DNA from: an uncultured Gelidibacter sp.
Lineage (GTDB): Bacteria > Bacteroidota > Bacteroidia > Flavobacteriales > Flavobacteriaceae
Assembly: GCF_947500795.1 (NCBI RefSeq)
Contig: NZ_CANMTE010000001.1
Coordinates: 868,001-932,000 of the forward strand
Direction of reading: 5' to 3'
Length of the DNA: 64,000 bases
Below the pieces are notes generated by a model. That model ran no database searches, had not been told where the DNA came from, and worked only from the letters and a program-made list of their open reading frames with translations. A program made the position numbers and the translations under genes. Numbering within the stretch: the stretch's first letter is position 1; each line of letters opens with the position of its first letter. Below, one piece after another: positions 2,997-64,000 of the stretch.

Positions 2997-4916
2997 ATGA
3001 AAAATACTATAGCCGAAAGAATTGCCGATTTTATCAAAAGCTTCCCTCCTTTTGACCAACTTTCAAAAGAGGATTTATACGCTATTGCACAAGTCGTAAC
3101 GATTACCTATCTCGAAAAGGATAAAATGGTTTATGCTGCCGGCGATGCGCTGCACGACAAATTCTACATGATCCACAAAGGCGCCATTGCACTGACTAAA
3201 GAAATCAACGCTAAATTGGAAACGGTCGATCGTTTTGATGAAGGTGATGTTTTTGGACTTCGACCACTTTTTGCTAAAGAAAACTATGCCACAAATGCCG
3301 TTACTGAAGAAGAAAGCATTCTCTACGGAATTCCTTTAGCCACGTTCAAGCCATTAATAAGCCAAAACAAAGATGTGGTTGACTTCCTGATAGAAAGCTT
3401 CGCTTCCAATACTGAAAACCCCTTTTCAAAAGAGATACACGGCTCACTATACGACAATCGTTTAGAGGTTTTGGCAAACGATAAAGAGCTTTTTGAACTG
3501 CAGCCTGTCCGCTATATCAAAAAAGTGATTACCGCCAAGGCGAACGCTAAAATCAAGGACATCGCACTGCTCATGCAGAAACACCATATTGGCTCGATAA
3601 TTATAGAAGCTGATGATATTCCCATTGGGATTGTCACCAATGTGGATTTACGAAATAAAGTTATTACTGGTGAATATACCATTGATGCTGAAGTCAAGCA
3701 CATTATGAGCGCACCGGTGTTGTGCTACCCAAAAGGGGTATCCATTAGTCAAGCACAACTCACAATGATGAAACATAACATTAGTCATTTATGTGTCACT
3801 GCGGATGGTACTCCAAATTCAAAAATTATTGGGGTCATCTCACAAAACGACATCAATGTGATGCGGGGCAGCAATCCAACGGTTTTAATGAAAGCCATCA
3901 AGCGCTCCCAATCCACAAAACAACTGAAGCATATCCGCAAAAAGATGATGGTGCTTTTAAAGGGTTTTATGAAACAGGACATCCCTTTAACCCAAACCAG
4001 TAAGATCATTTTTGAACTGAATGACGCCACCATTAAGCGGATTATTGAGCGCTGTATTGTAAAGATGGGGAAACAGCCTCCTGTGAAGTTTGCTTGGATG
4101 TCTATGGGCAGCCAAGGGCGAAAAGAGCAATTATTGCAAACAGATCAGGACAATGCCATCGTGTTTGAGAATGTTGAGGCAGATGAGTTGGAAGATGTAA
4201 GAGCCTATTTCCTATTGCTCTCAAAAAAAGTGAATAAACGGTTGAATGAAGTGGGCTTTGACTTTTGCCCGGCCGACATTATGGCGAAAAACCCAAAATG
4301 GTGCTTAAGTTTGGATGAATGGAAAAATCAGTTTAACCAATGGACCTCCAACACGGGTGATGATGAAATATTATTATCCTCCATTTTTTTCGACTTCGAC
4401 ATCACTTTTGGCGATGCCAGCCTCACAAACCAACTCTCGGATCACATCTTCGACATCACTAAAAACAATCACATGTTTCTAACCAAACTGGCCGCGAGCG
4501 CCCTGAGAAGCGCTTCTCCACTTGGATTCTTTAGGCGATTTTTGGTAGAAAAGGACGGTGAGTATAAAGATTTTTTCGACATTAAAAAACGCGCCATCAT
4601 GCCAATTGTAGATGCCGGACGACTGTTTGCGCTTTCAAACCAAATTAAAAATATTAATAACACGGCGGAGCGGTTTGAAAAAATGGCCGAATTATTTCCC
4701 GCGAATAAAGAACTCTACCTATCCTGTTCCTACGCCTCAAAAGCCCTTCTCAAATTCCGCACAAAACATGGCTTGCTCCATAACGATAACGGTCGATTTA
4801 TTGAAATTGCCGCATTGACCAAAGAAGAGAAAATGAAATTGAAACGGTGCTTTAACACCATAGCAAGGGTTCAAGAATCAATCAAACTGAAGTATAATCT
4901 AAGTAATTTTAAATGA
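2997..4916 (+). CDS. cNMP-binding / CBS-pair / DUF294 nucleotidyltransferase-like signalling protein
   Basis: About 639 residues from the ATG at 2997; a TTG at 2979 would add six residues, but ATG is preferred. Domains in order are a cyclic-nucleotide-binding fold (about 15-130), two CBS motifs (about 165-285), a DUF294 nucleotidyltransferase-like domain with the signature GSQGRKEQ...TDQDNA (about 365-385) and a DUF294_C helical domain. GlnD-like members are thought to transfer nucleotides to a protein target, but no substrate is established. The gene overlaps the DnaQ-like exonuclease by 4 bp. The same pair sits beside acs and its two-component regulator in several proteobacteria (my recollection of the CrbSR neighbourhood), and acs with a two-component system lies 10 kb away here. 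Confidence 0.85.
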   Translation: MKNTIAERIADFIKSFPPFDQLSKEDLYAIAQVVTITYLEKDKMVYAAGDALHDKFYMIHKGAIALTKEINAKLETVDRFDEGDVFGLRPLFAKENYATNAVTEEESILYGIPLATFKPLISQNKDVVDFLIESFASNTENPFSKEIHGSLYDNRLEVLANDKELFELQPVRYIKKVITAKANAKIKDIALLMQKHHIGSIIIEADDIPIGIVTNVDLRNKVITGEYTIDAEVKHIMSAPVLCYPKGVSISQAQLTMMKHNISHLCVTADGTPNSKIIGVISQNDINVMRGSNPTVLMKAIKRSQSTKQLKHIRKKMMVLLKGFMKQDIPLTQTSKIIFELNDATIKRIIERCIVKMGKQPPVKFAWMSMGSQGRKEQLLQTDQDNAIVFENVEADELEDVRAYFLLLSKKVNKRLNEVGFDFCPADIMAKNPKWCLSLDEWKNQFNQWTSNTGDDEILLSSIFFDFDITFGDASLTNQLSDHIFDITKNNHMFLTKLAASALRSASPLGFFRRFLVEKDGEYKDFFDIKKRAIMPIVDAGRLFALSNQIKNINNTAERFEKMAELFPANKELYLSCSYASKALLKFRTKHGLLHNDNGRFIEIAALTKEEKMKLKRCFNTIARVQESIKLKYNLSNFK

Positions 4917-9425: not shown

Positions 9426-10220
9426 TTAGGTTTTTGAGATCAATTTCTTTTTGTTTCGCGACTGCTTGCTAGGTTTAGCCTGCTCTGCTTTAATTCGCAC
9501 ATAAATGAGTTTATAGTGCCCTTTTGAATCTTCGCGACGCTCAATTTCAAACTCTTTTAAAGACTTAATTAACGGCGTTAATTTCTGGAAACCATAATTA
9601 CGAGAATCAAAATTAGGCTGCTTCTTTTGCATCAATCCGCCAACATCACCTAAGAAGGCCCAGCCGTCTTCATCCGCAACATCATCAATAGTAGCGGCAA
9701 TAAACTTAATTTCCTTCTGGGTGATTTTATCGACATTGCTCTTAGCCGTTTTTGACTCTTCTGTAGAAACAACTTCTTCGTCTGAACTTTGATTCTTAAG
9801 AATTTCAATATAGATGAACTTATCACAGGCAACAATAAAAGGATTTGGTGTTTTCTTTTCACCTATCCCATACACTTTCATCCCTGCTTCACGCAGTCGT
9901 GTTGCCAATCGGGTGAAATCGCTATCACTTGAAACGATACAAAAACCATCTACTTTTGCTGTGTAGAGAATGTCCATCGCATCAATAATCATGGCCGAAT
10001 CTGTAGCGTTTTTACCTACCGTATACCCATATTGCTGAATTGGCGTAATGGCGTTTTCCAAGAGCATATTCTTCCATTTTGAAAGATGAGGCTTGGTCCA
10101 ATCGCCATAAATACGCTTAATGGTAGGATTTCCATATTTGGCAATTTCCTCCATCATTTCCTTTACATAGGCTGAAGGGATATTATCCCCATCTATTAAT
10201 ACTGCAAGTTTTATATCCAT
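9426..10220 (-). CDS. NYN-domain (PIN-like) ribonuclease with C-terminal OST-HTH/LOTUS domain
   Basis: A 264-residue protein. Residues 1-150 are a NYN/LabA-like nuclease domain with acidic metal ligands in LIDGDNI, T-D-S-A-M-I-I-D-A-M-D and V-S-S-D-S-D-F-T-R-L. Residues about 165-250 (A-A-I-D-D-V-A-D-E-D-G-W...G-D-V-G onward) match the OST-HTH/LOTUS RNA-binding domain, followed by a basic tail rich in K/R. The architecture is that of putative structured-RNA nucleases (MARF1-like in eukaryotes, widespread in bacteria). Targets are unknown. It is transcribed alone, convergent with the carboxylase cluster. Confidence 0.88.
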   Translation of the reverse strand: MDIKLAVLIDGDNIPSAYVKEMMEEIAKYGNPTIKRIYGDWTKPHLSKWKNMLLENAITPIQQYGYTVGKNATDSAMIIDAMDILYTAKVDGFCIVSSDSDFTRLATRLREAGMKVYGIGEKKTPNPFIVACDKFIYIEILKNQSSDEEVVSTEESKTAKSNVDKITQKEIKFIAATIDDVADEDGWAFLGDVGGLMQKKQPNFDSRNYGFQKLTPLIKSLKEFEIERREDSKGHYKLIYVRIKAEQAKPSKQSRNKKKLISKT

Positions 10221-12892: not shown

Positions 12893-14218
12893 CTATTTTA
12901 TTTTGTCTCTCAAGGTTTTACGATCAATCTGAAGGATTTCTGCCGCCTTCGATTTATTATTCCCCATAGCCTCCAACACTTTAAGAATGTGTTTTTTTTC
13001 TACTTCCTTGAGCGATAAAAAGATATCCTGTTTTGGGAACTCAATTTGATATTTAAGGTGTTGCGGTAAATTTTCAATTTCCACTTGCTTATCGCACATA
13101 ATCACCGCGCGCTGAATACTATTTTCCAGCTCCCTAATATTTCCTGGCCAATCATAACGTTCTAGCGCCAACAAAGCCTCTTCTGATATTTTAACGATGC
13201 GGTCCTTATACTCTACCCCATATTTGAATAGAAATTTATCAACTAAAAGTGGAATATCAGATTTACGATCCCGTAAAGGTGGCACATCTATTTGGACCAC
13301 AGTCAATCGGTAATATAAATCTTCCCTAAAACGTCCTTTTTCAATAAGTTCTTTTAAATCAACATTTGTTGCTGCAATCACCCGAACGTCAATTTTCTCC
13401 ACTTTTTGGGAACCGACCCTCATGATTTCCTTTTCCTGCAGCACCCTAAGCAAACTCAGCTGTGTGGCCATGGAGGCATTTCCAATTTCATCTAAAAATA
13501 GAGTGCCTTTATTTGCCGCTTGAAAGAAGCCACTCCGATCTTCATTAGCACCCGTAAACGCGCCTTTCGTGTAGCCAAACAATTCCGCTTCTAAAAGATT
13601 TTCAGGAATAGCGCCACAATTGACCGCCACAAATGGTGCTGCCGCAAATTTCCCCATATAGTGAATGGCACGCGCCACAAGCTCTTTTCCGGTTCCACTT
13701 TCGCCTTTAATGAAAACTGTAGCCTTATTATCCTTTACTCTATCAATAATATTTGATACGTTCTTAAACGCTTCAGATTGCCCAATAAGTTCCCCAAAAA
13801 CGGGATGCTGCGAGGTAGCTTTTTTAGGTTTTGAATGTGTTCGTGGGCGTAACGCAAATGATTTCTCTACCGCATTCTTGAGTTCATCTTTGGTGAAAGG
13901 CTTGGTTAAGTAGTCCATAACTCCAGACTTCATTGCTGCTAATGCGCCATCAATAGAAGGATAGCCCGTTACCGCCAATTTTGGAATTTCGGGAAAATGT
14001 TCAGATACGTATTTTACCAATTGCAACCCATCAACGCCTGGCATTTGGAGATCGGTAATTAATAAATCAATGGATTGATCCTGTAAAATAGCAATTGCTT
14101 CTTTTACAGAAATAGCTTTATAGGTATGATAATTTAAGGACTGCAGATGCCTTTGGATAAGTTCTAAAATGTGCACATCATCATCCACAATCAATATGTT
14201 TTCCTTTTCCAATGGCAT
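12893..14218 (-). CDS. Sigma-54-dependent response regulator (NtrC family)
   Basis: A 441-residue activator. The receiver domain (1-120) has the acidic pocket D12-D14, phosphoacceptor D56 in L-L-I-T-D-L-Q-M-P-G, T84 and K106. The AAA+ domain (about 145-375) carries Walker A GESGTGKE (172-179) and the sigma-54-contact loop GAFTGA (219-224). A Fis-type HTH closes the protein (K-S-K-A-A-E-I-L-x-I-D-R-K-T-L). It is the last gene of the acs-kinase-regulator operon, 3 bp after the kinase stop. The nearest plausible target is the sigma-54 promoter at 12744-12759. Confidence 0.95.
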   Translation of the reverse strand: MPLEKENILIVDDDVHILELIQRHLQSLNYHTYKAISVKEAIAILQDQSIDLLITDLQMPGVDGLQLVKYVSEHFPEIPKLAVTGYPSIDGALAAMKSGVMDYLTKPFTKDELKNAVEKSFALRPRTHSKPKKATSQHPVFGELIGQSEAFKNVSNIIDRVKDNKATVFIKGESGTGKELVARAIHYMGKFAAAPFVAVNCGAIPENLLEAELFGYTKGAFTGANEDRSGFFQAANKGTLFLDEIGNASMATQLSLLRVLQEKEIMRVGSQKVEKIDVRVIAATNVDLKELIEKGRFREDLYYRLTVVQIDVPPLRDRKSDIPLLVDKFLFKYGVEYKDRIVKISEEALLALERYDWPGNIRELENSIQRAVIMCDKQVEIENLPQHLKYQIEFPKQDIFLSLKEVEKKHILKVLEAMGNNKSKAAEILQIDRKTLRDKIK

Positions 14219-14221
14219 GTT

Positions 14222-15322
14222 TTACAATTTGGGAAATGTTAATGTAAAAATGGTTCCTTGCGGTTTATTCGCACTATGTTTTATGGTTCCTCTATGGCTT
14301 TTCATTATACCATGAACCACACTCAACCCTAAACCTGAACCTTCACCAACAGGTTTGGTGGTATAAAAAGGATTGAAAATGTGTTCAGAAATTTCTTTTG
14401 GAATACCTACGCCCTCATCACTTATAATCATAACCACTTCCTTAGCATGGTTGCTAATATCCACCACAATTTTTCCGTTTTGAGGAGAGAAATAAATGGC
14501 ATTGATTACTAAGTTAAAAACAACTTGTGTGAGTTGAATGGCATCGACTTTAAATGAAATATCTTCTTCACTAAACTGCAACTGACAGTCCAATCCTTTT
14601 TTACTGAAACTAGGCTGCAACAAATTTATGGCCTCAGTGATTATCGGATTAATGTTCACCAATTCCATTTGATGAGGCATTTCACAGGAAAAGAACATTA
14701 ATTTTTTCACCACTTCCCTTGAGAAAATGGCGCTATTCATTATTTTGTCTAAATCCTGAAGGGCAACCTTATCCTTAGCAAAACGTTCTTTTAATAATTC
14801 AGAAAACCCTAAAATATTCGCCAATGGCGTATTCAATTCATGCGCGATGCCTGCTGTAATTTCACCTAAAATTGCGAGTCTATCAGCACGCTCCATTTGA
14901 CGCTTGGTCCGTTCTTCTTTATCAATAATCTGTTTGCGTTCTATGAGATTGCCAATTTCGGCCGCCAAGGTTTTTAAGAGTTTTTTCTCTTCTTCCAAGA
15001 ACACATTCTCATTATATTTTTCCTTCGGATAGCCGATTTTAATAGCACCATAAGGCAAGTTGAACACCTTAATTGCCGAGAGAATAAACACTTGATCTTC
15101 TAACCTTTGGCCTGCATACACATGCTGATCTCCCAACTTTAATTCAACAAAAGCTTCCTCACTATAAAGTATAGCTTCCTTCAAACTGGCAGCAATGGCT
15201 TTAAAGGTCGGATCTAAATCATAAAGATTACAATTGGCAATATAGGAGCTGACATTGTACAGACAAGTCAGCTCCTTAATGCGTTCTTTTAATTTATCTT
15301 CTGTTGAAACACGGGTTCTCAT
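14222..15322 (-). CDS. Cytoplasmic sensor histidine kinase partnered with the NtrC-type regulator
   Basis: A 366-residue kinase without membrane segments. Residues about 10-130 look like a GAF-type sensory domain, followed by a coiled linker, then a HisKA domain with the phosphorylated H161 in G-I-A-H-E-L-N-T-P-L. The HATPase domain has the N box (L-V-I-N-A-I-Y-F-S), G1 (D-E-G-V-G-I-P) and G2 (G-E-G-S-G-L-G-L-S). It starts 8 bp after acs and ends 3 bp before the regulator gene. The signal must be intracellular; linkage to acs suggests acetate, acetyl-CoA or amino-acid catabolic state, which is inference. Confidence 0.92.
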   Translation of the reverse strand: MRTRVSTEDKLKERIKELTCLYNVSSYIANCNLYDLDPTFKAIAASLKEAILYSEEAFVELKLGDQHVYAGQRLEDQVFILSAIKVFNLPYGAIKIGYPKEKYNENVFLEEEKKLLKTLAAEIGNLIERKQIIDKEERTKRQMERADRLAILGEITAGIAHELNTPLANILGFSELLKERFAKDKVALQDLDKIMNSAIFSREVVKKLMFFSCEMPHQMELVNINPIITEAINLLQPSFSKKGLDCQLQFSEEDISFKVDAIQLTQVVFNLVINAIYFSPQNGKIVVDISNHAKEVVMIISDEGVGIPKEISEHIFNPFYTTKPVGEGSGLGLSVVHGIMKSHRGTIKHSANKPQGTIFTLTFPKL

Positions 15323-15330
15323 TTTAATGC

Positions 15331-17235
15331 TTACAGCCTTTTATCGATAATCTCCTGTACAACTTCCGGATTCAACAAGGTACTTGTATCCCCCAAGTTG
15401 CTCATGTCATTTTCTGCAATCTTACGTAAAATACGACGCATAATTTTTCCACTTCTTGTTTTCGGCAAAGCCTCCGTAAACTGAATCTTATCAAGTTTTG
15501 CGATTGGCCCAATACGTTCTGATATCAATTGGTTGATTTCTTTGCGCAAATTATCATGGAGCCTGCTTTCTCCTGTTTCCTTTAAAGATATATAGCCATA
15601 AAGTGCGTTTCCTTTAATGTCATGTGGGAATCCTACAATTGCACTTTCTGAAACTGCTGGATGCTCATTAATGGCATCTTCCAAAGGTCCTGTTCCTAAA
15701 TTATGTCCTGAAACAATCACGACATCATCTACCCTTCCTGTAATTCTGTAATATCCAACTTCATCACGCAACGCACCGTCACCCGTAAAGTATTTATTCT
15801 CGTAAGTAGAAAAATAGGTGTCTTTATAACGCTGGTGGTTATTCCAAATAGTTCGTGCCATTCCTGGCCAAGGGAATTTTATGCACAAACGGCCTTCTAC
15901 CTGATTCCCGACTAATTCTTCGCCAGACTCATCAACTAATGCAGGTTGCACTCCTAAGAAAGGCAAGGTGGCGTAGGTAGGTTTTGTTGGCGTTACATAT
16001 GGCAAAGGCGTAATCATAATGCCTCCGGTTTCTGTTTGCCACCACGTATCAACAATTGGGTTTTTACCTTTTCCAATAATGTCATTATACCAGTGCCATG
16101 CTTCCTCATTAATTGGTTCACCTACTGAACCGAGCACCTTAATGGACGATAAATCTACATTTTCAGCAAATGATAAATTCTGCTTTGCTAAGGCACGAAT
16201 AGCAGTTGGTGCTGTATAAAACTGGTTCACTTTATGTTTTTCGACAATCTGCCAGAATCTTCCAAAGTCTGGATAATGCGGCACGCCTTCAAACATTAAT
16301 GTAGTCGCACCATTGGCCAAGGGTCCATAAACGATATAACTATGGCCAGTAATCCAACCAATATCTGCCGTACACCAATAGACATCGTTTTCTTTATACT
16401 GGAACACATTCTTAAAAGTATACGCGGTGTACACCATATATCCGCCCGTGGTATGCACCATTCCTTTCGGCTTTCCTGTAGAACCAGAAGTATATAAAAT
16501 GAACAACGGATCTTCGGCATCCATAATTTCGGCTTCAAAAACTGCCGAAGCCTTATCCATTAACGGCTGTAACCATATATCACGATTTTCGACCATTTGT
16601 ATGTCAGAATTGGTACGATTTACCACCAATACTTTATCTACTTCACATTGTTGTAATGCCTCATCAACAATTCCTTTTAAGTCGATACTTTTATTACCTC
16701 TATAGGAACCATCTGCCGTAATCACAATTTTACAGTCGCTGTCTTTTATACGTGTGGATAGTGCGGTTGATGAGAATCCAGCGAAAACTACGTTATGGAT
16801 TGCGCCAATTCGAGCACATGCCAATAAAGTGACTGCCAATTCAGGAATCATAGGCAAATACACACAAACGCGATCGCCTTTTTTAACTCCTTGATCTTTT
16901 AAAACGTTGGCCATTTTACATACGCGCTCATGAAGCTGTTTATAAGTGATGTGTTGGGCAGCTTCATCCGGACTATTCGGTTCAAATATTATGGCTGTTT
17001 TATCGCCACGATTGAGTAAATGCCTGTCTAGACAATTTTCTGTAATGTTCAATTTCGCGCCTTCAAACCATTTGATTTCTGGTTTTTTAAAATCCCAGGT
17101 GAGTACTTTGTCCCATTTTTTTCGCCATAAGAAATGCTCTTCAGCGATTTCTTCCCAAAAATTTTCAGGCTCACGTACTGATTTTCTATAGACTTGGTAA
17201 TACTCCTCTAGGTTTTTAATGCTGTAATTACTCAT
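15331..17235 (-). CDS. acs: Acetate--CoA ligase (acetyl-CoA synthetase)
   Basis: A 634-residue AMP-forming ligase that activates acetate to acetyl-CoA. It has the ACS N-terminal domain, the P-loop Y-T-S-G-S-T-G-K-P-K-G, the W-W-Q-T-E-T-G-G motif, Y-x-T-G-D-G near the hinge, and the C-terminal A10 motif P-K-T-R-S-G-K-I-M-R-R, whose lysine is the usual acetylation switch. Length matches the family. It is the first gene of an operon with the histidine kinase and the sigma-54 activator (gaps of 8 and 3 bp), which ties acetate activation to transcriptional control. The 188 bp upstream contains no clear sigma-54 site. Confidence 0.95.
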   Translation of the reverse strand: MSNYSIKNLEEYYQVYRKSVREPENFWEEIAEEHFLWRKKWDKVLTWDFKKPEIKWFEGAKLNITENCLDRHLLNRGDKTAIIFEPNSPDEAAQHITYKQLHERVCKMANVLKDQGVKKGDRVCVYLPMIPELAVTLLACARIGAIHNVVFAGFSSTALSTRIKDSDCKIVITADGSYRGNKSIDLKGIVDEALQQCEVDKVLVVNRTNSDIQMVENRDIWLQPLMDKASAVFEAEIMDAEDPLFILYTSGSTGKPKGMVHTTGGYMVYTAYTFKNVFQYKENDVYWCTADIGWITGHSYIVYGPLANGATTLMFEGVPHYPDFGRFWQIVEKHKVNQFYTAPTAIRALAKQNLSFAENVDLSSIKVLGSVGEPINEEAWHWYNDIIGKGKNPIVDTWWQTETGGIMITPLPYVTPTKPTYATLPFLGVQPALVDESGEELVGNQVEGRLCIKFPWPGMARTIWNNHQRYKDTYFSTYENKYFTGDGALRDEVGYYRITGRVDDVVIVSGHNLGTGPLEDAINEHPAVSESAIVGFPHDIKGNALYGYISLKETGESRLHDNLRKEINQLISERIGPIAKLDKIQFTEALPKTRSGKIMRRILRKIAENDMSNLGDTSTLLNPEVVQEIIDKRL

Positions 17236-55409: not shown

Positions 55410-55577
55410 CGTAAAATCAGAAAAATCAAATTAGAATTTCTTAGGTGAAACACCTAAACCCTACTCGTTTATCAAAGTTTAATTTTAATTAAAGCACTTT
55501 TTAGCTAAACTTTAATACAACTCCATACCCTTACACTCTCCGAATAGATTAATTTTGCAAAATTAAATTTTGAAGAA

Positions 55578-56036
55578 ATGGTTTCTGATTTATTCATTGC
55601 AATGCTTTGGAGTATTTCACCTTTTGGCGAAGCAAAAGTTGGTATTCCTTATGCCCTATTGAATGGTGTGAATATTTATATAGCGTTCTTGTTTTGCTTT
55701 TTGGCGAATGTTTTGGTGTTTCCTATGATGATGTTCTTCCTTAAAGTAATCAATCTTTATTTTTTTAAGTGGTACTATTATAAAAAAGCAGCCCTCTATG
55801 TGGCTCGACGTGCTAAAGTTGGTGCGGGAGAAAATGTGAAGAAATACGGATTTTGGGGCCTTATTGTTTTTGTTTTGATTCCACTTCCGGGAACGGGTGT
55901 TTACGCTGGTACTATTGCTGGGTATTTATTTGGGGTGGAGCGTAAACGCGCGTTCTTAGCAAATACTATCGGTATCTTTATTTCATGTGCCATTGTTTGG
56001 ACAACGACATTATTGGCGATGAAAGGCTTTAATTAA
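55578..56036 (+). CDS. COG2426-type small integral membrane protein (putative small multidrug export)
   Basis: A 152-residue membrane protein with four helices. The segments S-P-F-G-E-A-K-V-G-I-P-Y-A near 13-25 and K-Y-G-F-W-G-L-I-V-F-V-L-I-P-L-P-G-T-G-V-Y-A-G-T near 88-111 match the family annotated as putative small multidrug export protein, a distant relative of DedA-like transporters. Function is not established. A -7-like TAATTTTG at 55550-55557 lies 20 bp before the ATG. Confidence 0.85.
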   Translation: MVSDLFIAMLWSISPFGEAKVGIPYALLNGVNIYIAFLFCFLANVLVFPMMMFFLKVINLYFFKWYYYKKAALYVARRAKVGAGENVKKYGFWGLIVFVLIPLPGTGVYAGTIAGYLFGVERKRAFLANTIGIFISCAIVWTTTLLAMKGFN

Positions 56037-56058
56037 GATGTAAATTTCCGATATCACT

Positions 56059-57318
56059 CTATTGGAACATTGACAATGCTTCCCTTCTACTTTTAGTATC
56101 CAGAAAAACATACACAATGTTGCTAATAAAATGACTGGCCAAAACTGCAACAGCAGCACCGTTCACTTGCCAAATTGGGATCAGCAGATAACACAGTAAC
56201 AAGTTTGAAACACATCCGAGAATAAAACGATACACATTCTTCTGTATATCGTTGGCGTTAATTAAGTGCTTCTCGTAAATCATTCCAACAAAGACAAAAA
56301 GTGGCGCCCAACAAAAAATCAACAAGGGATATTTTGCTTCGGCATAAGAGGAGGTGAAAAAAGTATCCAAAATGACATCTCCAAATAGCGTATAGAATCC
56401 ACCAATTCCAACTCCAAGCAATAGCATTATTTTAAGAAGTCTCTTTATTTTTATTTTATAGAGCGTTACGTCATCCTGAAAGGATTCGGCGAGTGAAGGA
56501 TATAATGCATTAATTATAGAAAATCCGATATTCCAACTCAATCCAATAACTAAAAATTGAACCGTTGCAAAAATCCCAATGGCATGATCGTCATGATAGT
56601 ATTTTAAAAACAATTCATCAATAGTAATGTAGAACATGATTAATCCATTGGAAATAATCAATGGAAAAGACATTTTTAATAAGGTCTTTGCGTAGCTCCA
56701 CGAAAACTTCCATTGGCTAAAGAAAACCAACTTCTTATACCTTAATATCACAGAATAGATAAGCCCTTGAATGAACATATCCAGCACAATAAGTTTGGCG
56801 AAATAATACACATCAAACTGATTTTGCACGCCATAAAACTGCAACGCCACAATAAGCATTAAGCTGGCTATTTTACTTATAAATATGATTTTAGTCCATT
56901 TTTTTGCCAATAAATAGTATTCAAATACATCCGTCAATTTGAACAAATAACTAAATGCTATTATCAGGTATAAACCTCGTAGCGGACTGCTATCAGTAAA
57001 ACTAAAATAGATAAGAATGCCTATAAAAATCAGCAACCAACTGATGAGTCGGAGATAAAAAGCAGTGGCTAAAATCAGCTGCGTCCGTTTGGGATTAAAT
57101 ATAAGTTCCCGAATACAAATGGCAGATAAACCCAGGAAAAACAAAGGTGTGATCATTCCAAAAACAGATTCTACAAACTTAAGTTTCCCTATATCAACCG
57201 TTCCTAAAGCGCTAAATATCTTAGGAACTATAAAAACACCAGTTACAAGTTGTATAACTTTTTCGAGTGTAAACCACTTGGTGGCAATAAAATCTTTTCT
57301 ACTAAAAACCGCTGTCAT
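56059..57318 (-). CDS. Polysaccharide biosynthesis flippase (Wzx / MVF-like)
   Basis: A 419-residue membrane protein with about twelve helices, of the MOP (multidrug/oligosaccharidyl-lipid/polysaccharide) exporter superfamily. Features are the N-terminal T-G-V-F-I-V-P-K-I segment, L-K-F-V-E-S-V-F, and the mid-protein G-L-I-M-F-Y-I-T-I-D-E-L-F-L-K-Y-Y motif. It probably flips lipid-linked oligosaccharides. No glycosyltransferases or other polysaccharide genes are adjacent, so it is an isolated flippase. Convergent with the COG2426 gene (22 bp apart). Confidence 0.85.
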   Translation of the reverse strand: MTAVFSRKDFIATKWFTLEKVIQLVTGVFIVPKIFSALGTVDIGKLKFVESVFGMITPLFFLGLSAICIRELIFNPKRTQLILATAFYLRLISWLLIFIGILIYFSFTDSSPLRGLYLIIAFSYLFKLTDVFEYYLLAKKWTKIIFISKIASLMLIVALQFYGVQNQFDVYYFAKLIVLDMFIQGLIYSVILRYKKLVFFSQWKFSWSYAKTLLKMSFPLIISNGLIMFYITIDELFLKYYHDDHAIGIFATVQFLVIGLSWNIGFSIINALYPSLAESFQDDVTLYKIKIKRLLKIMLLLGVGIGGFYTLFGDVILDTFFTSSYAEAKYPLLIFCWAPLFVFVGMIYEKHLINANDIQKNVYRFILGCVSNLLLCYLLIPIWQVNGAAVAVLASHFISNIVYVFLDTKSRREALSMFQ

Positions 57319-57408
57319 GAACTGGATTTGGGTGGGTAAATATATAAAATCCGATTCTCTATAATCGATTGAAAGTAAATTATTACATTCGTTTATCTAA
57401 TCAACTTT

Positions 57409-58389
57409 ATGACTCCAGAGTTTCTACGTCGTTACTATATTTTACGCGTTATATCAAACCCAAAAGTGTATGGGATTGAGAAAAATGGCTTTGTTCCTCT
57501 AACCGATTTACAACGCGCATTAGATCAATTACGTTTAGATAATATTGATGATCCGCTGTATGATAAATTAAGTCAAAATGGCCAAAAAACTATAAAACGT
57601 GATCTTCAAAAGATAAAATCCTATTACCAGACCATTATCTTACACAAGCGTAATTACGGGTATTATGTGGAAGAAACTGATGTGAGTGAATCGCTCAGGG
57701 ACGTCTATGAGAAAACGGAAATCTACCTCCTCCACCACCATGCCCATAAATGGAAATCGTATGTCACAACCTCGCGGAACTCACTAAGCGATCAAATAGA
57801 TTTGGTGCCCCTAATTCACGCCATAGAACAACAATACAGAATTGAGTTGGAGTATCAAGGTTGGTATGATGATAATGGATTTGAGACTATTTCTGGTTTT
57901 TTTCAACCCTTACATCTCAAAGAAATCAACAAGGCTTGGTATTTAATAGCGCATAAGGAGCAGTATGGAATTTATTCGTTTTGTTTAGACGAAAGGATTA
58001 AAACTTTTAAAATCAGCAAACAGCAAGTAAAGCACCCCATAGAATTCGATGCATTTGAGTATTTCAAAAATGCCATAGGTATTTTAAAGACAGGAATACT
58101 ACCAGAATGGATTCATATTGAAGTGGCCAACCATCATTTTAAATACGCCATAAACAATCCGCTACATCATTCCCAGGAAATTGTCGCCTACCCAAAAATT
58201 CTAAATTCACACGAATTAGATTATAGCAATCCGGACATTTGGGGCGAAATAAAAGTGTTTTTAGAGCCTAATTACGAGTTCTTAATGGAGATTTTGAAAT
58301 ATAATCTTTGGGTAAGAATTGTTAGTCCGTTACATGTTAAAGCGTATGTAAAAGAGCATGTTGGAATGATCATGAAATATTACGAATAA
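57409..58389 (+). CDS. WYL-domain transcriptional regulator
   Basis: A 326-residue regulator: N-terminal winged HTH (about 1-70, with the recognition region Q-K-T-I-K-R-D-L-Q-K-I), WYL domain (about 135-215; I-E-Q-Q-Y-R-I-E-L-E-Y and F-F-Q-P-L-H-L-K-E-I-N-K-A-W-Y-L-I-A) and a C-terminal WCX domain (about 230-320). WYL proteins bind nucleic-acid-derived or other small ligands, and several (BrxR, CapW) repress phage-defence loci by binding inverted repeats. A 27-bp palindrome lies 66 bp after its stop, before the genes discussed below. Confidence 0.9.
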   Translation: MTPEFLRRYYILRVISNPKVYGIEKNGFVPLTDLQRALDQLRLDNIDDPLYDKLSQNGQKTIKRDLQKIKSYYQTIILHKRNYGYYVEETDVSESLRDVYEKTEIYLLHHHAHKWKSYVTTSRNSLSDQIDLVPLIHAIEQQYRIELEYQGWYDDNGFETISGFFQPLHLKEINKAWYLIAHKEQYGIYSFCLDERIKTFKISKQQVKHPIEFDAFEYFKNAIGILKTGILPEWIHIEVANHHFKYAINNPLHHSQEIVAYPKILNSHELDYSNPDIWGEIKVFLEPNYEFLMEILKYNLWVRIVSPLHVKAYVKEHVGMIMKYYE

Positions 58390-58455
58390 CATCTACTCCT
58401 CCAATCCTATTATATAGTCACGCTTAGATTTTTGTGGTTTAAAATTAAAGTTTTT

Positions 58456-58482
58456 TTAAACGGACATATTTTGTCCATTTAA
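58456..58482. promoter_or_regulatory. 27-bp palindrome, probable operator
   Basis: TTAAAC-GGACA-TATTT-TGTCC-ATTTAA: two 11-base arms with a single C/A mismatch around a 5-nt centre. It lies between the WYL gene and the 52-residue CxxC gene, 53 bp before the latter's ATG. No T tract, so an operator is more likely than a terminator. Confidence 0.6.
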
Positions 58483-58534
58483 GAAATAGCTTTGAAACTG
58501 AAATCAAAATATTAAACCCCAAATCTACCAACCT

Positions 58535-58693
58535 ATGGCTACCTATAAATGTCGAAAATGTGGCATCCACAAGAACGACACGCTAACTTCCCAGTTAAAT
58601 ACACGTATTACCTGTACTGCATTTGAAAAGGACGCCGACGTGGTTTTTCACGACTGGCAGAAACTTTCGGAGGAAGACTTGGTGTTGCATTAA
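58535..58693 (+). CDS. 52-residue CxxC small protein
   Basis: ATG at 58535 and TAA at 58691. The protein starts M-A-T-Y-K-C-R-K-C-G-I-H, giving C6-x2-C9-x2-H12 and a third cysteine C27, a possible treble-clef/zinc-ribbon-like metal site. The second half is acidic (D-A-D-V-V-F-H-D-W-Q-K-L-S-E-E-D). It follows the WYL gene and the palindrome in the same direction. I do not recognise a family; coding status rests on the Cys pattern and the clean frame. Confidence 0.6.
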   Translation: MATYKCRKCGIHKNDTLTSQLNTRITCTAFEKDADVVFHDWQKLSEEDLVLH

Positions 58694-58938
58694 CAATCAA
58701 ACTATTAATTTATTTGGAAAAGTAAGGATAATGAACCTTTTAATTTTTCATGATGACATGTGGGTTACCGCATAATCCGATGAAATTTTAAAGATAGGGT
58801 TCAACAATTATGATTTTACAAATTCAATTTAAATCAGATTATAACGATGCTAACATTCGAGATTTTATCTAATGTTACTATAATATATCAACGATTTTAG
58901 GACTACATCAACTAATTATAATTTAAAGAAACAATAAA

Positions 58939-59730
58939 ATGGATAAAGAGAAAATAGAAATCGATTTAGGAATTGAAGAGCAAAATTTACTTGCGGAAAT
59001 AGAAGAACTCCAAAGTAAGATGAATGAGGTGGACCCCAAAAAACTTAATGGACAATTAATGGATGCTATTAAAGAAAAATCGATTGAGTCAATAACAATG
59101 GCTCTAGGTGTTTCCGATATTTTAGAACAAACAGGTCATACAAAAGCTATTAATTTTAAAAAAGAATTTGAAAATAAAAAAAAATGGGACAATACTCCCA
59201 TAACTGAAAGAAGCAAAAAGTACAAACCAAAATTCACCAATGGTGATGAATTTGAAAAATTATTAAATAAAGAAATCCCAAAATACAATAGAGAGGAATA
59301 TGTTGGTAAGGGAAAAGGGCTATCACAGGCGGAGACTCAAAAGGAAAAATGGTTAGAAAGTAAAAAAGAAGGAGGTATCTATGATGCGTTTAGAGGCAAG
59401 TTTATTGCGAACGATGAAAAAGATAAGAAAAACAAAGCATATGAGTGGGATCACTTCAAATCAGCTTATGAAGTACATAATGACCCTATCTTAAGTTTAT
59501 TAAGTTTAGAAGAAAAAAGAAATTTTCTAAACTCAAATGAGAACTTAGTTCCTGTTTTAGGAAAATTAAATAATCATAAAAGAGCTGTAAGTCTTGACGA
59601 TATTCCAAAATGGTTAAACGCACCTTCAAAAGAAGATCCAAATAAAACCAATAAACAATTTTTTGAAATTGACGAGGAGCGGATTAATAATGCAATGGAA
59701 AAGGTAAGAGAAAAGAAAATGAAATCTTAA
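58939..59730 (+). CDS. HNH-like domain protein, N-terminal part of a probable frameshifted gene
   Basis: A 263-residue protein, very lysine/asparagine-rich and AT-rich in codons. Residues 1-60 are a charged coiled coil. The C-terminal half has an HNH-like arrangement: I-Y-D-A-F-R-G-K-F-I near 147-156, E-W-D-H-F-K-S (D171, H172), N-S-N-E-N-L-V at 198-204, N-N-H-K at 211-214 and K-W-L near 224-226. Restoring one A in the AAAA at 59716-59719 would fuse it with the next frame into a 557-residue protein, HNH-like plus membrane domain, an architecture I recall as a single gene in other bacteria (no family name known to me). Function unknown. Confidence 0.75.
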   Translation: MDKEKIEIDLGIEEQNLLAEIEELQSKMNEVDPKKLNGQLMDAIKEKSIESITMALGVSDILEQTGHTKAINFKKEFENKKKWDNTPITERSKKYKPKFTNGDEFEKLLNKEIPKYNREEYVGKGKGLSQAETQKEKWLESKKEGGIYDAFRGKFIANDEKDKKNKAYEWDHFKSAYEVHNDPILSLLSLEEKRNFLNSNENLVPVLGKLNNHKRAVSLDDIPKWLNAPSKEDPNKTNKQFFEIDEERINNAMEKVREKKMKS

Positions 59731-59822
59731 AAAACAAAACAGTTATATATGGTCTTAAAACCCAATCTAAAATTGCGGTATCGAACGCTGCCAAAAGTGG
59801 TGTTAAAGCTGCAATTGGCAAA

Positions 59823-60611
59823 TTGCTATCAATAACGGTTATTGAAGTAATTAATGAATTTAAAAATGAAGAAGAAGTTGATTTTAAAACTAAAGCAAAT
59901 AATATTACTGCAAGAATTAAAGCGAAATCAAAAGATATTTTGAGCTCGTTTAGTCATCATTCAGTTAATAGTTTTCTCTCAACCTTTATAGATGCCCTAC
60001 TGAATTCGGTATTTAAAATAGCGAAGAACATCTTTAAATTTGTTAAAACGGCAATTATGTCAATATTAAAAACTATTAAAATTTTATTTTCAAATAAGTA
60101 CACTTTGGAAGAAAGGCTCAATGAGGCTATGAAAATAATGGGTGCTACAGTAGCAACATTAATAGGCGTAGCATTAGACGAGGTTATTGGAAATGCATTG
60201 ATGACCTACTTACCTTTTACCGCTCCGTTTGCCGGTTACATCTCACCAGTTTTATCTGGTTTAATTGTTGGAATCAGTTCTGTATTACTTTTACAAGGAT
60301 TTCAAGTGTATAAGAACGAAATTGCTTTTAATAAATTAGAAGGAGAAAATATTGATAAGTTAACAAGACTATCGAAAGTCAATATGGCCCAAGTTGGTGT
60401 CAGTGATTACAAGACGACACAATCTGTTGGTTTATCAATTACGGTTTTTCAAGGAGTACTACCTATTATTGCATCTTGCAAAAGTCAAATAAACGATGCA
60501 ATTCAAGATTTATCAGAAATGAAAAATGAATTTACTTTAAGATCTATTAACGTAGAAAATGCACAGGACGAAGCAGACCATCTACTAGCTCAATTAAAAT
60601 CCCTATCCTAA
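59823..60611 (+). CDS. Membrane-domain protein, C-terminal part of the probable frameshifted gene
   Basis: The frame is open from 59691 but has no ATG or GTG; the first usable codon is TTG at 59823, giving 262 residues. Protein-like sequence continues upstream of this TTG (G-L-K-T-Q-S-K-I-A-V-S-N-A-A-K-S-G-V-K), which argues that it is the broken-off C-terminus of the preceding gene. From the TTG, residues 50-90 are amphipathic, and two glycine-rich membrane helices lie at about 104-122 and 139-160 with a P-F-T-A-P-F turn between. The tail is soluble and helical. The glycine-zipper helices could form a pore (inference). It ends in TAATG, overlapping the next start. Confidence 0.65.
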   Translation: MLSITVIEVINEFKNEEEVDFKTKANNITARIKAKSKDILSSFSHHSVNSFLSTFIDALLNSVFKIAKNIFKFVKTAIMSILKTIKILFSNKYTLEERLNEAMKIMGATVATLIGVALDEVIGNALMTYLPFTAPFAGYISPVLSGLIVGISSVLLLQGFQVYKNEIAFNKLEGENIDKLTRLSKVNMAQVGVSDYKTTQSVGLSITVFQGVLPIIASCKSQINDAIQDLSEMKNEFTLRSINVENAQDEADHLLAQLKSLS

Positions 60612-61354
60612 TGACTAATACTCAACAAGAAATTATTCCGTCAAATCTTGTTCCTGAGGTAAAAAGACTTCAAAGTAGACTTAACGAATCTGGCAAGAAC
60701 CTGGAACGACTTACTAAAAATTTAGAACAACATAGAGACTTAATTGGGGAAACACAAAAATCCGTTGACGATCAATGGTTCTCAAGTAGTCCAAGTAGAA
60801 ATGAGTTGTGGAAATTAATCAAAAGCGATCAAGAATCAAATAGTAAAACAACTAAAGATATCGCTAACTTATTTAAAAGTGTTAATCAAAACACAGCAGA
60901 TCTGGCTCAAATGGTTAGAGGTCTTGCTCAGTTATCATGTATGACGTATGAAGATTTAAATAAAAGTTTTAATGAAATCAAAGATAACAGAAAACAAACT
61001 AATGTTAATGGAGAGATACTTGAGAAAGGGCAATCACAGTTAAACCAACTTATAAAACTACATCTTGACAGAGCAAAAAATGAACGAGAAAAAGAGATAT
61101 TATTTAACCAAAATATGGAAAAAATTGATTTTGCATTAGACGTAACTAATAAATCTGTTAATCTCAAAATAGAAGAACTTAATTCCGCTATGGAACAAAT
61201 CTATTTTTTAAAAGAACTAAATAATAAATTAGTTTTAGAATCTAACCGATTTGATAGCGTAAAGAAGAGGTTAAAATTACTGACAACTTTAAGTGTAGTC
61301 GCGATAATGTTGTCAATAGCATCAGGAATTTTTATTTATATACAGCTATTTTAA
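60611..61354 (+). CDS. Coiled-coil protein with C-terminal membrane anchor
   Basis: A 247-residue protein that overlaps the stop of the membrane-domain frame by one base (TAATG), so the two are translationally coupled. Residues about 10-220 are almost entirely charged helix with heptad character. One hydrophobic helix at the very C-terminus (about 224-246, L-L-T-T-L-S-V-V-A-I-M-L-S-I-A-S-G-I-F) gives a tail-anchored topology. No enzyme motif. Probably the structural or sensing partner of the upstream HNH/membrane protein. AT-rich like that gene. Confidence 0.75.
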   Translation: MTNTQQEIIPSNLVPEVKRLQSRLNESGKNLERLTKNLEQHRDLIGETQKSVDDQWFSSSPSRNELWKLIKSDQESNSKTTKDIANLFKSVNQNTADLAQMVRGLAQLSCMTYEDLNKSFNEIKDNRKQTNVNGEILEKGQSQLNQLIKLHLDRAKNEREKEILFNQNMEKIDFALDVTNKSVNLKIEELNSAMEQIYFLKELNNKLVLESNRFDSVKKRLKLLTTLSVVAIMLSIASGIFIYIQLF

Positions 61355-61441
61355 AAAATGCCAATAAGAAATTAGATTTTGAAGACAACACATTTGCTGA
61401 TTTTTATAATGATTTCATAATTGAAATTTAAATTTACAACT

Positions 61442-61882
61442 ATGCAAACCACCACCCGCCCCTACCACCGCTCCGAAATAGATCTTCTATTCACTAAAAT
61501 AAAGCAACAAATGCACCAAGAGGCCTTAAAGCAAGGCGGAGATGGTATCGCACTTTATAGAGATTGCTACACAGGTAAAATTCTGCGTGGTGGCGATCGC
61601 TATGATTATGAGCATATCCGCTCTTCAGAATCCATATTCATGAAGTATTGCGACCAATTGACCAATTCTGAAATTGCGGAAGTGGTCAACTGCCCAGAAA
61701 ATGTGGCCGTGACCTTACGAACTATTAATCAGTCTAAAGGTAAAATGAGAATGGAAGATTGGCTTGCTAATGCGAACAACATTACCACCCACAGGATTGA
61801 TCTTGGATTAACTAAAAGCACTTTGGCTTATGCTGATATCGGCATTCAGCGGAAAGTAAACGAAATACTTGCTAGGAAGTAA
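61442..61882 (+). CDS. Stand-alone HNH-like protein
   Basis: A 146-residue protein from the ATG at 61442 (a TTG at 61421 would add seven residues). Motifs in order: Y-R-D-C-Y-T-G-K-I-L at 39-48, Y-E-H-I-R-S-S with E57-H58, N83, E-N at 86-87, N-Q-S-K-G at 96-100 and E-D-W-L at 105-108. This is the same order and spacing as in the HNH-like half of the protein at 58939, with E-H instead of D-H. Codon use is closer to the genome average than in the three preceding frames. Nuclease activity is not proven; it could be a decoy or immunity paralogue. Confidence 0.75.
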   Translation: MQTTTRPYHRSEIDLLFTKIKQQMHQEALKQGGDGIALYRDCYTGKILRGGDRYDYEHIRSSESIFMKYCDQLTNSEIAEVVNCPENVAVTLRTINQSKGKMRMEDWLANANNITTHRIDLGLTKSTLAYADIGIQRKVNEILARK

Positions 61883-61908
61883 TTAATTATAAGGGACCTA
61901 GTTACACG

Positions 61909-61935
61909 AAAACCAGAGGTGAATCCTCTGGTTTT
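61909..61935 (+). terminator. Terminator after the stand-alone HNH-like gene
   Basis: Eleven-base perfect stem AAAACCAGAGG / CCTCTGGTTTT with a TGAAT loop and a T-rich tail, 26 bp after the stop. Confidence 0.9.
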
Positions 61936-62038
61936 AGTTTTTAAGCATTTTTTTAAAAGTAAGTTTGTTCTAACGATTCACCAAAAAATTCTGTGGATCA
62001 AGACGATCACGACAATCCTAATTAGATATTTCTAATTA

Positions 62039-63043
62039 CTACTCCTGCTCGAATTCTAAAATATCTTTAGAATTGAATCCGATAAAAATAGTGTCTGCAA
62101 TATTTTTGTCTTGTGTCATTACCGTCAATTGCTCGCCTGATTCCAATTTTAATAACAGTTGAATAGAATCGCCAAGTTCAATTTTTTTAATGACTTGAGC
62201 TGAAGTTAAATATTCACAATCGGCTTCAGCAGACGACGGACTCACAATAATCTTTTCATTCCTAATAGCATGGCAACAGGTTTCCTTTAACGGACATCTA
62301 AATGCATTCTGTAAATTTTTATTGATATGTATGGTGCTACCAAATAAAGACGCCACGTACAAGGTATTTGGTTTTACGTAAAGGTTTGTGGCCACATCTT
62401 TTTGAATCACTCTGCCCTTTTGTAAGATTAGAATTTCATCTGCAACGGACAATGCATCTTGGGTATCGTGGGTTACAAATAACACAGTGACACCTGTTTT
62501 CTTTATAATATCAAACACTTCATTGCGCAACTGTGTTCGCAACATGGTGTCCAAATTACTAAATGGTTCATCTAAAATCAATAAAGAAGGTTCTGGCGCA
62601 AGCGCTCTTGCCAAGGCCACACGCTGCTGCTGTCCACCTGAAAGTTGATGCGGGTAACGTTTCCCTAAATCGCCCAAGCCAACCAATTCCAGCATTTCTT
62701 GTGCTCTTTGCTTTTTATGCTTCATTTTTGAAATCCCGTACAGCACGTTGTCCAAAATTGTTAAGTGCGGAAATAAAGCATATTCCTGAAAAACCAATCC
62801 GATTTTTCGCTTCTCCGGTTGCACAAACTTATCCAACGAAGCAATCACCTTATCCCCCATGACGATACTTCCATGATCAGGCCTTTCAAGTCCTGCAATT
62901 AAGCGCACCAATGTGGTTTTTCCACTCCCACTCTCTCCAACAATAGCACACACTTGGCCAGCCTTCAAATTGAAAGTCACATTCTCTATGGCGTAATTTC
63001 TGCCTTTGTCAAAACTTTTAGAAAGAGCGTTTATAGTTAACAT
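62039..63043 (-). CDS. Ferric iron-type ABC transporter ATP-binding protein (FbpC/PotA-like)
   Basis: A 334-residue ATPase. Walker A G-E-S-G-S-G-K-T-T at 36-44, Q loop F-Q-E-Y-A-L-F-P-H, signature L-S-G-G-Q-Q-Q-R, Walker B L-L-I-L-D-E-P-F-S-N-L-D and switch histidine in V-T-H-D. A C-terminal TOBE-like regulatory region (about 235-334) contains a C-x5-C-C cluster that could bind iron. It lies 2 bp after the permease gene and powers import of Fe3+ or a related anion. The iron substrate is inferred from family resemblance. Confidence 0.9.
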   Translation of the reverse strand: MLTINALSKSFDKGRNYAIENVTFNLKAGQVCAIVGESGSGKTTLVRLIAGLERPDHGSIVMGDKVIASLDKFVQPEKRKIGLVFQEYALFPHLTILDNVLYGISKMKHKKQRAQEMLELVGLGDLGKRYPHQLSGGQQQRVALARALAPEPSLLILDEPFSNLDTMLRTQLRNEVFDIIKKTGVTVLFVTHDTQDALSVADEILILQKGRVIQKDVATNLYVKPNTLYVASLFGSTIHINKNLQNAFRCPLKETCCHAIRNEKIIVSPSSAEADCEYLTSAQVIKKIELGDSIQLLLKLESGEQLTVMTQDKNIADTIFIGFNSKDILEFEQE

Positions 63044-63045
63044 GG

Positions 63046-64000
63046 TTATTTCTTGATCAATAATTTATTTAAAAATATCACTGGTAGCATTGCTGTAAAG
63101 ATAATAAAAAGTGAAGGGATAGACGCCTCCATGACCATCTCATCACTGGCATATTCAAACGCCTTTACTGCTAAAGTGTCAATATGATACGGTTTTAAGA
63201 TGAGTGTTAATGGTAATTCTTTCATCACATCAATAAAAACCAATATTACCGCACTAAAAACACCTGTTTTTATGAGCGGAAATTCGATTTTAAAAAATGT
63301 TTTTAAATTTCCAACGCCCAAAACCTTCGAGGAATCTGGGATGGAATTATCCACTTTTAGAGCTGTCGAATCTATCGGATTATAAGCCACTGCCAAGAAT
63401 CTGACGGCATAGGCATACAATAGCGCAATTAAGGTGCCATTGATGATTAAACCAGAATCTATTCCAACTTTTGCCAACATATTAATCAGCCATTTGTCTA
63501 AAGCCAAGGTAGGAATCATAATACCAATGGCAATCACAGCACCTGGAATGGCATATCCTAAAACCCCAATTCTAGAAATATTTTTAATAGAACTCAAGGT
63601 GCTCCATTTTGAAAAATAGATGAGCAAAAGAGCGAAAAACACAGTGATGAGCGCTGATGAAATGGCTATGGCAAAACTCTGAAGTGAAATCATAATAAAT
63701 TCCATATCAAAAACAGTCGATGCTGTGATAACCGCCCAATACACCAACTGTGCTACGGGCAGCATAAAACCTAAAACTATTGGCAACAATACCACCGAAA
63801 ATATCAGCCATTGCAAGCCTCCTTTAGGTTGCTTTCTCTGAATTTGCGTACTATTGGTTTTTGAAGAAGTGAATTTAACCTTTCTGACTTGCCATTTTTC
63901 AAACAAGATTAAGGCAAAAATAAATATGATCAATAAGGCCGATAAATAGACTGCTGTTTGTGGTTCTTCAAGTGAAAACCACGATCTGAAAATTCCCGTG
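63046..64000 (-). CDS. Ferric iron-type ABC transporter permease (FbpB-like), C-terminal part
   Basis: The frame is open to the window edge; an internal TTG at 63933 is not the real start, since coding sequence of the family (E-E-P-Q-T-A-V-Y-L-S-A-L-L) continues beyond it. About 317 residues are visible, the C-terminal portion of a duplicated FbpB permease that is usually about 520 long. Six or seven membrane helices are seen, with the second EAA-like cytoplasmic loop (D-S-S-K-V-L-G-V-G-N-L-K-T-F-F-K-I-E-F-P-L). It is cotranscribed with the ATPase 2 bp downstream. Confidence 0.9.
   Translation of the reverse strand, partial: TGIFRSWFSLEEPQTAVYLSALLIIFIFALILFEKWQVRKVKFTSSKTNSTQIQRKQPKGGLQWLIFSVVLLPIVLGFMLPVAQLVYWAVITASTVFDMEFIMISLQSFAIAISSALITVFFALLLIYFSKWSTLSSIKNISRIGVLGYAIPGAVIAIGIMIPTLALDKWLINMLAKVGIDSGLIINGTLIALLYAYAVRFLAVAYNPIDSTALKVDNSIPDSSKVLGVGNLKTFFKIEFPLIKTGVFSAVILVFIDVMKELPLTLILKPYHIDTLAVKAFEYASDEMVMEASIPSLFIIFTAMLPVIFLNKLLIKK

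Follow-up and report, generated by a model that had tools for sequence, protein, structure and literature searches.

Introduction

PADLOC-DB 2.0.0 (PADLOC-DB 2023) lists under the name PDC-M40 a candidate with the models PDLC04629 for component A, 04630 for component B and 04631-04634 for component C, where 'PDC' stands for phage defence candidate according to the accessible part of PMC11514479. We found no paper naming PDC-M40 in the literature searched, and the candidate is untested as far as could be found; the accessible parts of PMC9252829 and PMC13092281 hold nothing on PDC candidates or a like system. Here, we analyse a locus of an uncultured Gelidibacter species (Flavobacteriaceae; genome size 3.46 Mb) which encodes a relative of component B, an HNH nuclease-like domain fused to a membrane-like domain (the HNH-membrane protein), followed by a tail-anchored partner protein. 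The stretch studied comprises bases 868001-932000 of contig NZ_CANMTE010000001.1, and the window below means this whole stretch of 64,000 nucleotides.

Other described systems resemble the locus in part. As far as the accessible text of PMC13190303 goes, the membrane-bound nuclease SNIPE can cut phage DNA during injection and is composed of DUF4041 and GIY-YIG behind an N-terminal anchor. The likeness concerns only the working proposed below, with a nuclease held at the inner membrane; in the window, however, the HNH domain precedes the membrane domain, and a second anchored protein is present. Pfam gave no match to GIY-YIG or DUF4041 in the locus proteins, and the two systems are not related. 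The WYL regulator BrxR binds inverted repeats of 11 bp separated by 5 bp, according to the accessible part of PMC9122601. The window shares with BrxR and CapW a WYL regulator beside exchangeable defence genes and the 11-5-11 layout, whereas its repeat lies 3' of the WYL gene, ahead of the gene for a CxxC peptide. A likeness to GmrSD is weak and below threshold (GmrSD_C at 0.026 and 14.8 bits, cut-off 23, in one relative), and the proteins differ from GmrSD in giving no DUF262 match in Pfam. The HNH region also aligned below threshold (E 0.2) with the DUF262-domain protein of PDB entry 7p9k, which we take to be BrxU.

Component B of PDC-M40 was matched over both halves of the HNH-membrane gene of the window, and a tail-anchored protein stands directly 3' of it, in the same order as in PDC-M40. 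The window differs in that the SUKH component A is missing, the partner is unmatched by the four C models, the B gene is broken, and the genes stand in a frame of WYL, CxxC and stand-alone HNH genes. With A absent and C unrecognised, the profile matches indicate a PDC-M40-like variant and not a full member. A preliminary description of the window had proposed an undescribed system, which does not hold for the core because PADLOC-DB 2023 lists the HNH-membrane family as PDC-M40B. We slightly favour the reading (probability roughly 0.55) that a membrane-held HNH nuclease and its membrane-anchored partner act as accessory defence and form one allele of a WYL-CxxC-cargo-HNH locus of Flavobacteriaceae. 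The locus links a PADLOC candidate family to a layout of membrane nuclease and anchored partner in two phyla, and the family is also found on a plasmid of a third phylum, with another partner.

Results and Discussion

The HNH-membrane gene and its tail-anchored partner

Libraries searched were Pfam, PADLOC-DB 2.0.0, PDB sequences, genomes, plasmids, phage records and viral contigs; hydrophobic segments were taken from hydropathy, and coiled-coil character from a crude heptad score compared with 200 shuffles. The HNH half (263 aa, 58939..59730, + strand) matched PDC-M40B at 2e-7 over model positions 59-230 of 547, and the membrane half, a 306-aa open frame in another frame of the same strand (59691..60611), at 1.8e-16 over positions 251-438. 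The frames overlap by 40 bases, with the break within 59691-59730, and no own ATG start was seen ahead of the conserved part of the membrane frame. In Gelidibacter gilvus, the homologue is a single open frame of 556 residues which matches PDC-M40B at 3.2e-26, with 80% identity to the HNH half over 254 residues and 78% to the membrane half over 295 residues, and the partner gene follows with the same one-base overlap. In the genome G718, of another genus of the same family, a single frame of 547 residues precedes the gene for a partner of 271 residues, which has a hydrophobic stretch at its C-terminus. The frameshifted fusion proposed in the preliminary description is thus borne out by the matches of both halves to PDC-M40B and to the intact G. 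gilvus copy. Because both halves remain conserved, the break either arose recently or reflects a sequencing or assembly error; the HNH-membrane gene is probably inactive in this genome, or else the break is such an error. That the break is programmed and yields two proteins is highly improbable: the overlapping frames are both long and conserved, but G. gilvus, G718 and 13 further relatives carry the gene as a single open frame, and a canonical slippery heptamer was not seen by eye.

The D, H, N and N of the HNH motif are invariant in 14/14 aligned full-length relatives, an alignment that leaves out the window (broken), L007 (shortened) and L065 (the G718 locus), and the HNH half of the window retains D171, H172, H180, N202 and N211. 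Between the window and G. gilvus, dN/dS was 0.07 for the HNH part, 0.14 for the membrane part and 0.23 for the partner (dS 0.8-1.6), which indicates purifying selection on all three. The middle frames are AT-rich, as had been described, with a GC content of 30-32% against 37% in the window. Neither the two halves nor a profile of the stand-alone HNH protein nor family profiles found a PDB sequence below E 0.1.

Hydropathy peaks of the membrane frame lie at residues 36-54, 149-171, 177-201 and 245-263, and glycine makes up 5.2% of this half and 10.6% of residues 140-205. The domain is hydrophobic, and the earlier terms glycine-rich and two-helix fit it loosely. The partner (247 aa, 60611..61354, + strand) begins with a one-base overlap (TAATG) with the membrane frame and has one hydrophobic segment, at the C-terminus (residues 229-247); it is 67% identical to the G. 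gilvus partner and 27% to that of G718 (E 7.5e-14). Of its description as a tail-anchored coiled-coil protein, the C-terminal segment and the overlap were confirmed, and the coiled coil fits loosely: the crude heptad score is above that of the shuffles, of which 7 of 200 reached it. No further + strand open reading frame of at least 60 aa was present between 58389 and 61442.

The pair as a mobile unit and its wider family

Comparison of window positions 55501-64000 with the G. gilvus locus (L040) revealed DNA similarity over 58947-61317 only, which is the pair without its flanks. The G. gilvus unit, whose HNH-membrane protein is that of G586:C33:50223-51890 (100%), lies about half a megabase from the WYL gene of the same genome, on the same contig, and as an intact two-gene version it is small. 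Among the nine genomes of the genus, a match to the HNH-membrane protein occurred in two, the window's own and G. gilvus. Because the DNA similarity is confined to the pair, and because WYL and CxxC stand without it elsewhere, the WYL, CxxC and stand-alone HNH genes lie outside the mobile unit, which is formed by the HNH-membrane gene and its partner. The single cassette of the preliminary description has therefore to be divided: the pair moves alone, and WYL and CxxC are present in genomes that lack it.

The wider HNH-membrane family was inspected in 17 loci, obtained from protein searches of plasmids (a selection of the matches) and genomes: the window, L040, L065, L005, L011, L007, L048, L049, L008, L009, L052, L010, L051, L050, L053, L054 and L056. 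A Cupriavidus locus without annotation (L055) is outside this count, and the downstream genes of loci without an anchored partner were judged from annotation tables, not every one being translated. A C-terminally anchored protein stands directly 3' of the HNH-membrane gene in 6/17 loci from two phyla, namely those of the window, G. gilvus, G718, Klebsiella, E. coli and Variovorax (window, L040, L065, L011, L048, L049). The Klebsiella and E. coli partners match PDC-M40C, and the Variovorax partner gave no match. In five loci (L008, L009, L053, L054, L056) the neighbour is a glycine-rich membrane-like protein, matched by PDC-M09A in L008 and L009 and recognised by reading in the other three, and in all five a YkgJ-family protein is annotated after the HNH-membrane gene. 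A smaller protein with a hydrophobic stretch is encoded 5' of the gene in 4/17 loci (L005, matching TerB; L010, L051 and L052, by reading). L050 encodes a different protein, of 404 residues, and the L007 gene is a shortened copy flanked by transposases. WYL genes are found within the group in L008, L050, L053, L054 and the window. That a WYL gene lies near PDC-M40B relatives on plasmids of Vibrio, Citrobacter, C. difficile and Raoultella favours the accessory-defence reading.

In the Klebsiella locus, a SUKH (SMI1/KNR4) gene matching PDC-M40A precedes the HNH-membrane gene. SUKH proteins are immunity proteins of nuclease toxins, and this order would suit a toxin-immunity or toxin-antitoxin conflict module, in which the HNH protein is toxic to the own cell or to rivals and is neutralised by its partner (by SUKH in Klebsiella). 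We regard such a role as unlikely, as no SUKH gene was seen in the window, G. gilvus or G718, Pfam showed no secretion or delivery domain, and the partner is membrane-anchored.

Relatives of the queries used were absent from viral contigs, and the phage records held none of the membrane half or of the stand-alone HNH protein, the two queries used there. Plasmids gave no match to the DNA of 57300-62100, to the HNH half or to the stand-alone HNH protein. E. coli genomes showed no DNA match to the Klebsiella unit, although a protein relative at 34% is present in plasmid records of E. coli. Besides the window's own, three genomes gave a PDC-M40B match, which was short and weak in G004, restricted to the HNH part in G461 and full in G561. 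The G004 match (17.7 bits) was dropped since the genes there read as metabolic, as was a weak partner match in G058 that runs through stops. Most PDC-M40B relatives from plasmids of Klebsiella and Raoultella bear the annotation (ATP--)cob(I)alamin adenosyltransferase (e.g., L054:3974-5545), which looks wrong.

Several features were noticed around the G. gilvus cassette. A degenerate second copy of an xseB-like gene end lies just before it (L040:6798-7055 and 15211-15420), with an xseA/xseB-like pair, named by eye, about 8 kb away; this may be an insertion trace at xseB, and no DNA match was found between the two xseB-like copies of L040. Dispersed REP-like repeats of about 30-75 bases surround the cassette (L040:4678-4998, 9809-9883, 13339-13398 and 14273-14347), and a REP-associated transposase-like gene was recognised by eye at L033:13771-14433. 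Integron sites were considered and rejected, as there was no tRNA or Rfam match and the repeats read as dispersed REP-type. Two genera share a similar pair of small genes (131 aa; 70-80 aa), by eye reminiscent of phage lysis genes, at a distance of about 4-5 kb from the HNH-membrane gene and its partner (L040:2147-2789 and L065:13102-13714).

A slot for exchangeable cargo

The WYL-domain regulator (326 aa, 57409..58389, + strand) reached 24.2 bits against Pfam WYL (cut-off 21.8), with no other Pfam domain above threshold. An orthologue is present in 6/9 genomes of the genus, at 75-84% identity for the five others, and G662 and G749, from two other genera, encode orthologues of 56 and 67% identity (read from sequence). 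The gene for a CxxC peptide (52 aa, 58535..58693, + strand) follows the WYL gene in all eight orthologous loci, from three genera (window, G582, G583, G584, G586, G013, G662 and G749). A stand-alone HNH-like protein (146 aa, 61442..61882, + strand) is encoded 3' of WYL and CxxC in 6/8 of these; it is absent from G586 and G013, where ordinary genes follow. The WYL regulator, the CxxC peptide, the stand-alone HNH protein and a 27-bp palindrome of the preliminary description were all recovered in place (57409-61882). The same description had named as a refutation homologues scattered with no conserved linkage; this was not observed, as the pair is linked in 6/17 loci from two phyla and the stand-alone HNH gene comes after WYL and CxxC in 6/8.

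What stands between the CxxC and HNH genes varies. The window has the HNH-membrane gene with its tail-anchored partner. In G582, a dynamin-like GTPase and a HerA-like ATPase are each followed by a smaller protein, of 142 and 174 residues, and in G584 three dynamin-like GTPases are accompanied by a protein of 129 residues. G662 encodes a protein of 679 residues together with a small P-loop-like one, and G749 a 681-residue relative (32%) of the 679-residue protein. In G583, the slot is without cargo and the stand-alone HNH gene intact. Cargos of sister loci match the PADLOC models HerA and LeoA/LeoBC, which, along with the PDC-M40B match of the window, agrees with the defence-like character proposed earlier. 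The new point is the frame itself, with constant WYL and CxxC genes, an HNH gene in most loci and unrelated defence-like cargos between them. Judged by these gene orders and matches, the locus is most likely a WYL-controlled accessory-defence locus with exchangeable cargo, that is, a chromosomal slot in which a constant regulator and a recurrent nuclease surround defence-like modules. A locus of this kind was not found described in a literature search that took in few subscription papers.

A further-reaching version, which we offer tentatively, would be a plug-in defence locus of Flavobacteriaceae, in which a constant WYL repressor, the CxxC peptide and the small HNH protein frame a slot that itself contains no integrase and yet exchanges unrelated modules, the HNH protein being either the exchange enzyme or a common effector. 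If so, the small HNH protein would account for the exchange of modules and for their connection to a single regulator.

The family of about 680 residues is common to two genera as slot cargo (L067:5791-7830; L068:8370-10415) and, at E 0.01, matched nothing in Pfam or PADLOC.

Proposed working and evidence weighed against it

In the accessory-defence reading, the cargo of the window would consist of a tail-anchored helical partner and a protein in which an HNH nuclease domain is joined to a hydrophobic, probably membrane-inserted one. The HNH domain would be held at the inner membrane, where the partner may sense the entry of phage or plasmid DNA, or an envelope disturbance, and gate the HNH domain, which would then cut DNA as an anti-phage or anti-plasmid defence. 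By way of the palindrome, the WYL protein probably keeps the unit repressed until a signal of infection or damage releases it. Homology and conserved HNH residues speak for the nuclease, and linkage of the two genes, their mobility and the exchangeable cargo beside constant WYL and CxxC genes for an accessory role; the activity, membrane topology, sensing, regulation and defence proposed here are predictions from sequence.

The candidate operator for the CxxC gene and the genes downstream is the imperfect 27-bp palindrome at 58456..58482 (no strand assigned; arms 11, spacer 5), whose arms are complementary at 10/11 positions. Its core, GGACA-N4-6-TGTCC, is found once in the window, where 0.09 occurrences would be expected. 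The core is present exactly between WYL and CxxC in the window, G583, G582 and G586, near-exactly in G013, and was not found at this place in G584, G662 and G749; outside the core, the arms of the sister palindromes match less well (7, 9, 8 and 8 of 11). Palindromes of the 11-5-11 type and of equal quality are not rare here, however: the window has seven, and 40 Markov simulations gave a mean of 1.4. The layout alone is weak evidence for regulation, because there are seven such palindromes in the window, one being a terminator-like hairpin. In the whole-window scan, no second 11-5-11 site of at least 10/11 was present near 57409, the known repeat being 3' of the WYL gene.

Several observations weigh against the accessory-defence reading. 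PDC-M40B is rare, with matches in 2/199 genomes of the family and 3/395 of the phylum (E 0.001, own genome included), and a defence-like context is indicated for the locus itself, to which the inspection of the window was confined, and not for a wider defence island. No SUKH (SMI1/KNR4) match was obtained among the six window proteins scanned. The partners of the window (E 1), G. gilvus (E 10) and G718 (E 0.01) gave no PDC-M40C match, and a profile comparison of window-type with proteobacterial partners was at noise level (0.5%). The coiled-coil nature of the partner is weakly supported, and the heptad scores of proteobacterial partners were reached by 48-87 of 200 shuffles. The G718 protein has E for the D of the HNH motif, the same change being found in the stand-alone HNH proteins. 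Membrane topology rests on hydropathy, and neither AlphaFold model could be used (for the one- and three-sequence models, mean pLDDT was 47.6 and 39.1). Finally, the palindrome lies 3' of the WYL gene, occurs with or without cargo and has its exact core in 4/8 loci only.

The stand-alone HNH protein: a possible common effector or mobiliser

The stand-alone HNH protein is a homologue of the PDC-M40B HNH domain by hhalign (probability 96.6, E 5e-10) and gave a weak match to PADLOC PDC-M40B itself (9.1e-7). E57-H58, N87 and N96 are conserved in an alignment of nine sequences. A match to Sigma70_r4_2 was rejected, being below threshold (0.014) and overlapping the HNH motif. The protein occurs in nine genomes, those of the six frame loci as well as G740, G461 and G332; in overlapping samples, each including the own genome, the counts were 4/59, 3/395, 6/397 (any match) and 3/329, with four stand-alone HNH proteins besides the window's own in the sample of 397. 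In G740, the gene accompanies dynamin and HerA genes and adjoins two tyrosine-recombinase genes (L066:3682-8398), and a WYL orthologue was not seen within the 15 kb read. The G461 gene precedes three other genes, one matching PDC-S29, and that of G332 lies close to the end of a contig, where no defence-like cargo was noticed. The G740 group of dynamin, HerA and HNH genes is perhaps an integrative element with a G582-like cargo.

That the protein is a shared effector nuclease, working with whichever sensor or membrane cargo precedes it, seems possible but less likely than not. In five loci, the HNH gene lies directly 3' of the cargo on the same strand, 21-87 bases away. A terminator-like hairpin follows it in the window (61909..61935, + strand), stronger than any other on the + strand between 57300 and 62050, and would agree with a single transcript reaching through HNH; a second, weak hairpin lies inside the membrane frame. 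The conserved residues and the HNH type shared with PDC-M40B would suit an effector, and neither of the two WYL and CxxC loci lacking the gene (G586, G013) has defence-like cargo. However, the gene is intact and constrained in the cargo-less G583 (dN/dS 0.11), the window cargo carries its own HNH domain, no stand-alone HNH gene lies near the G. gilvus and G718 pairs, in G461 the gene precedes its neighbours, and no terminator-like hairpin with exact arms follows it in the seven other loci examined.

The divergence of the gene bears on another role. Between the window and G583, pS was 0.36 for the stand-alone HNH gene against 0.68 for WYL and 0.78 for a flippase-like gene to the left, and 17/48 fourfold sites differed against 46/79 and 72/102 (Fisher P 0.017 and 7e-5). 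DNA similarity between the two was confined to the HNH gene (window 61453-61870), which suggests a recent exchange of this gene itself. In other genome pairs, synonymous sites are near saturation and the identity of the HNH protein is like that of its neighbours. A homing-type endonuclease cutting cargo-less alleles behind the CxxC gene, and thereby driving cargo exchange, would agree with this low divergence, and it would fit that the gene is the 3' neighbour of unrelated cargos in five loci, stays intact without cargo in G583 and accompanies dynamin and HerA near integrases in G740. We nevertheless consider a mobiliser doubtful. The low divergence concerns one pair only, in which the short CxxC stretch lying between the compared genes also shows fair similarity (85%); Pfam shows no homing-type DNA-recognition domain; the common strand and short gaps to the cargo resemble an operon; the HNH domain to which the protein is related, that of PDC-M40B, belongs to an effector-like protein; and no clean pair of empty and filled cargo alleles was found.

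Flanking genes

The left anchor of the locus is a divergent gene for a membrane protein, flippase-like by eye (56059..57318, - strand), whose orthologues adjoin WYL in sister loci. In G582 and G584, a second WYL-type regulator is encoded 3' of the stand-alone HNH gene (L035:10565-11464; L036:11602-12495), so that the slot in these two genomes is bracketed by two WYL-like genes.

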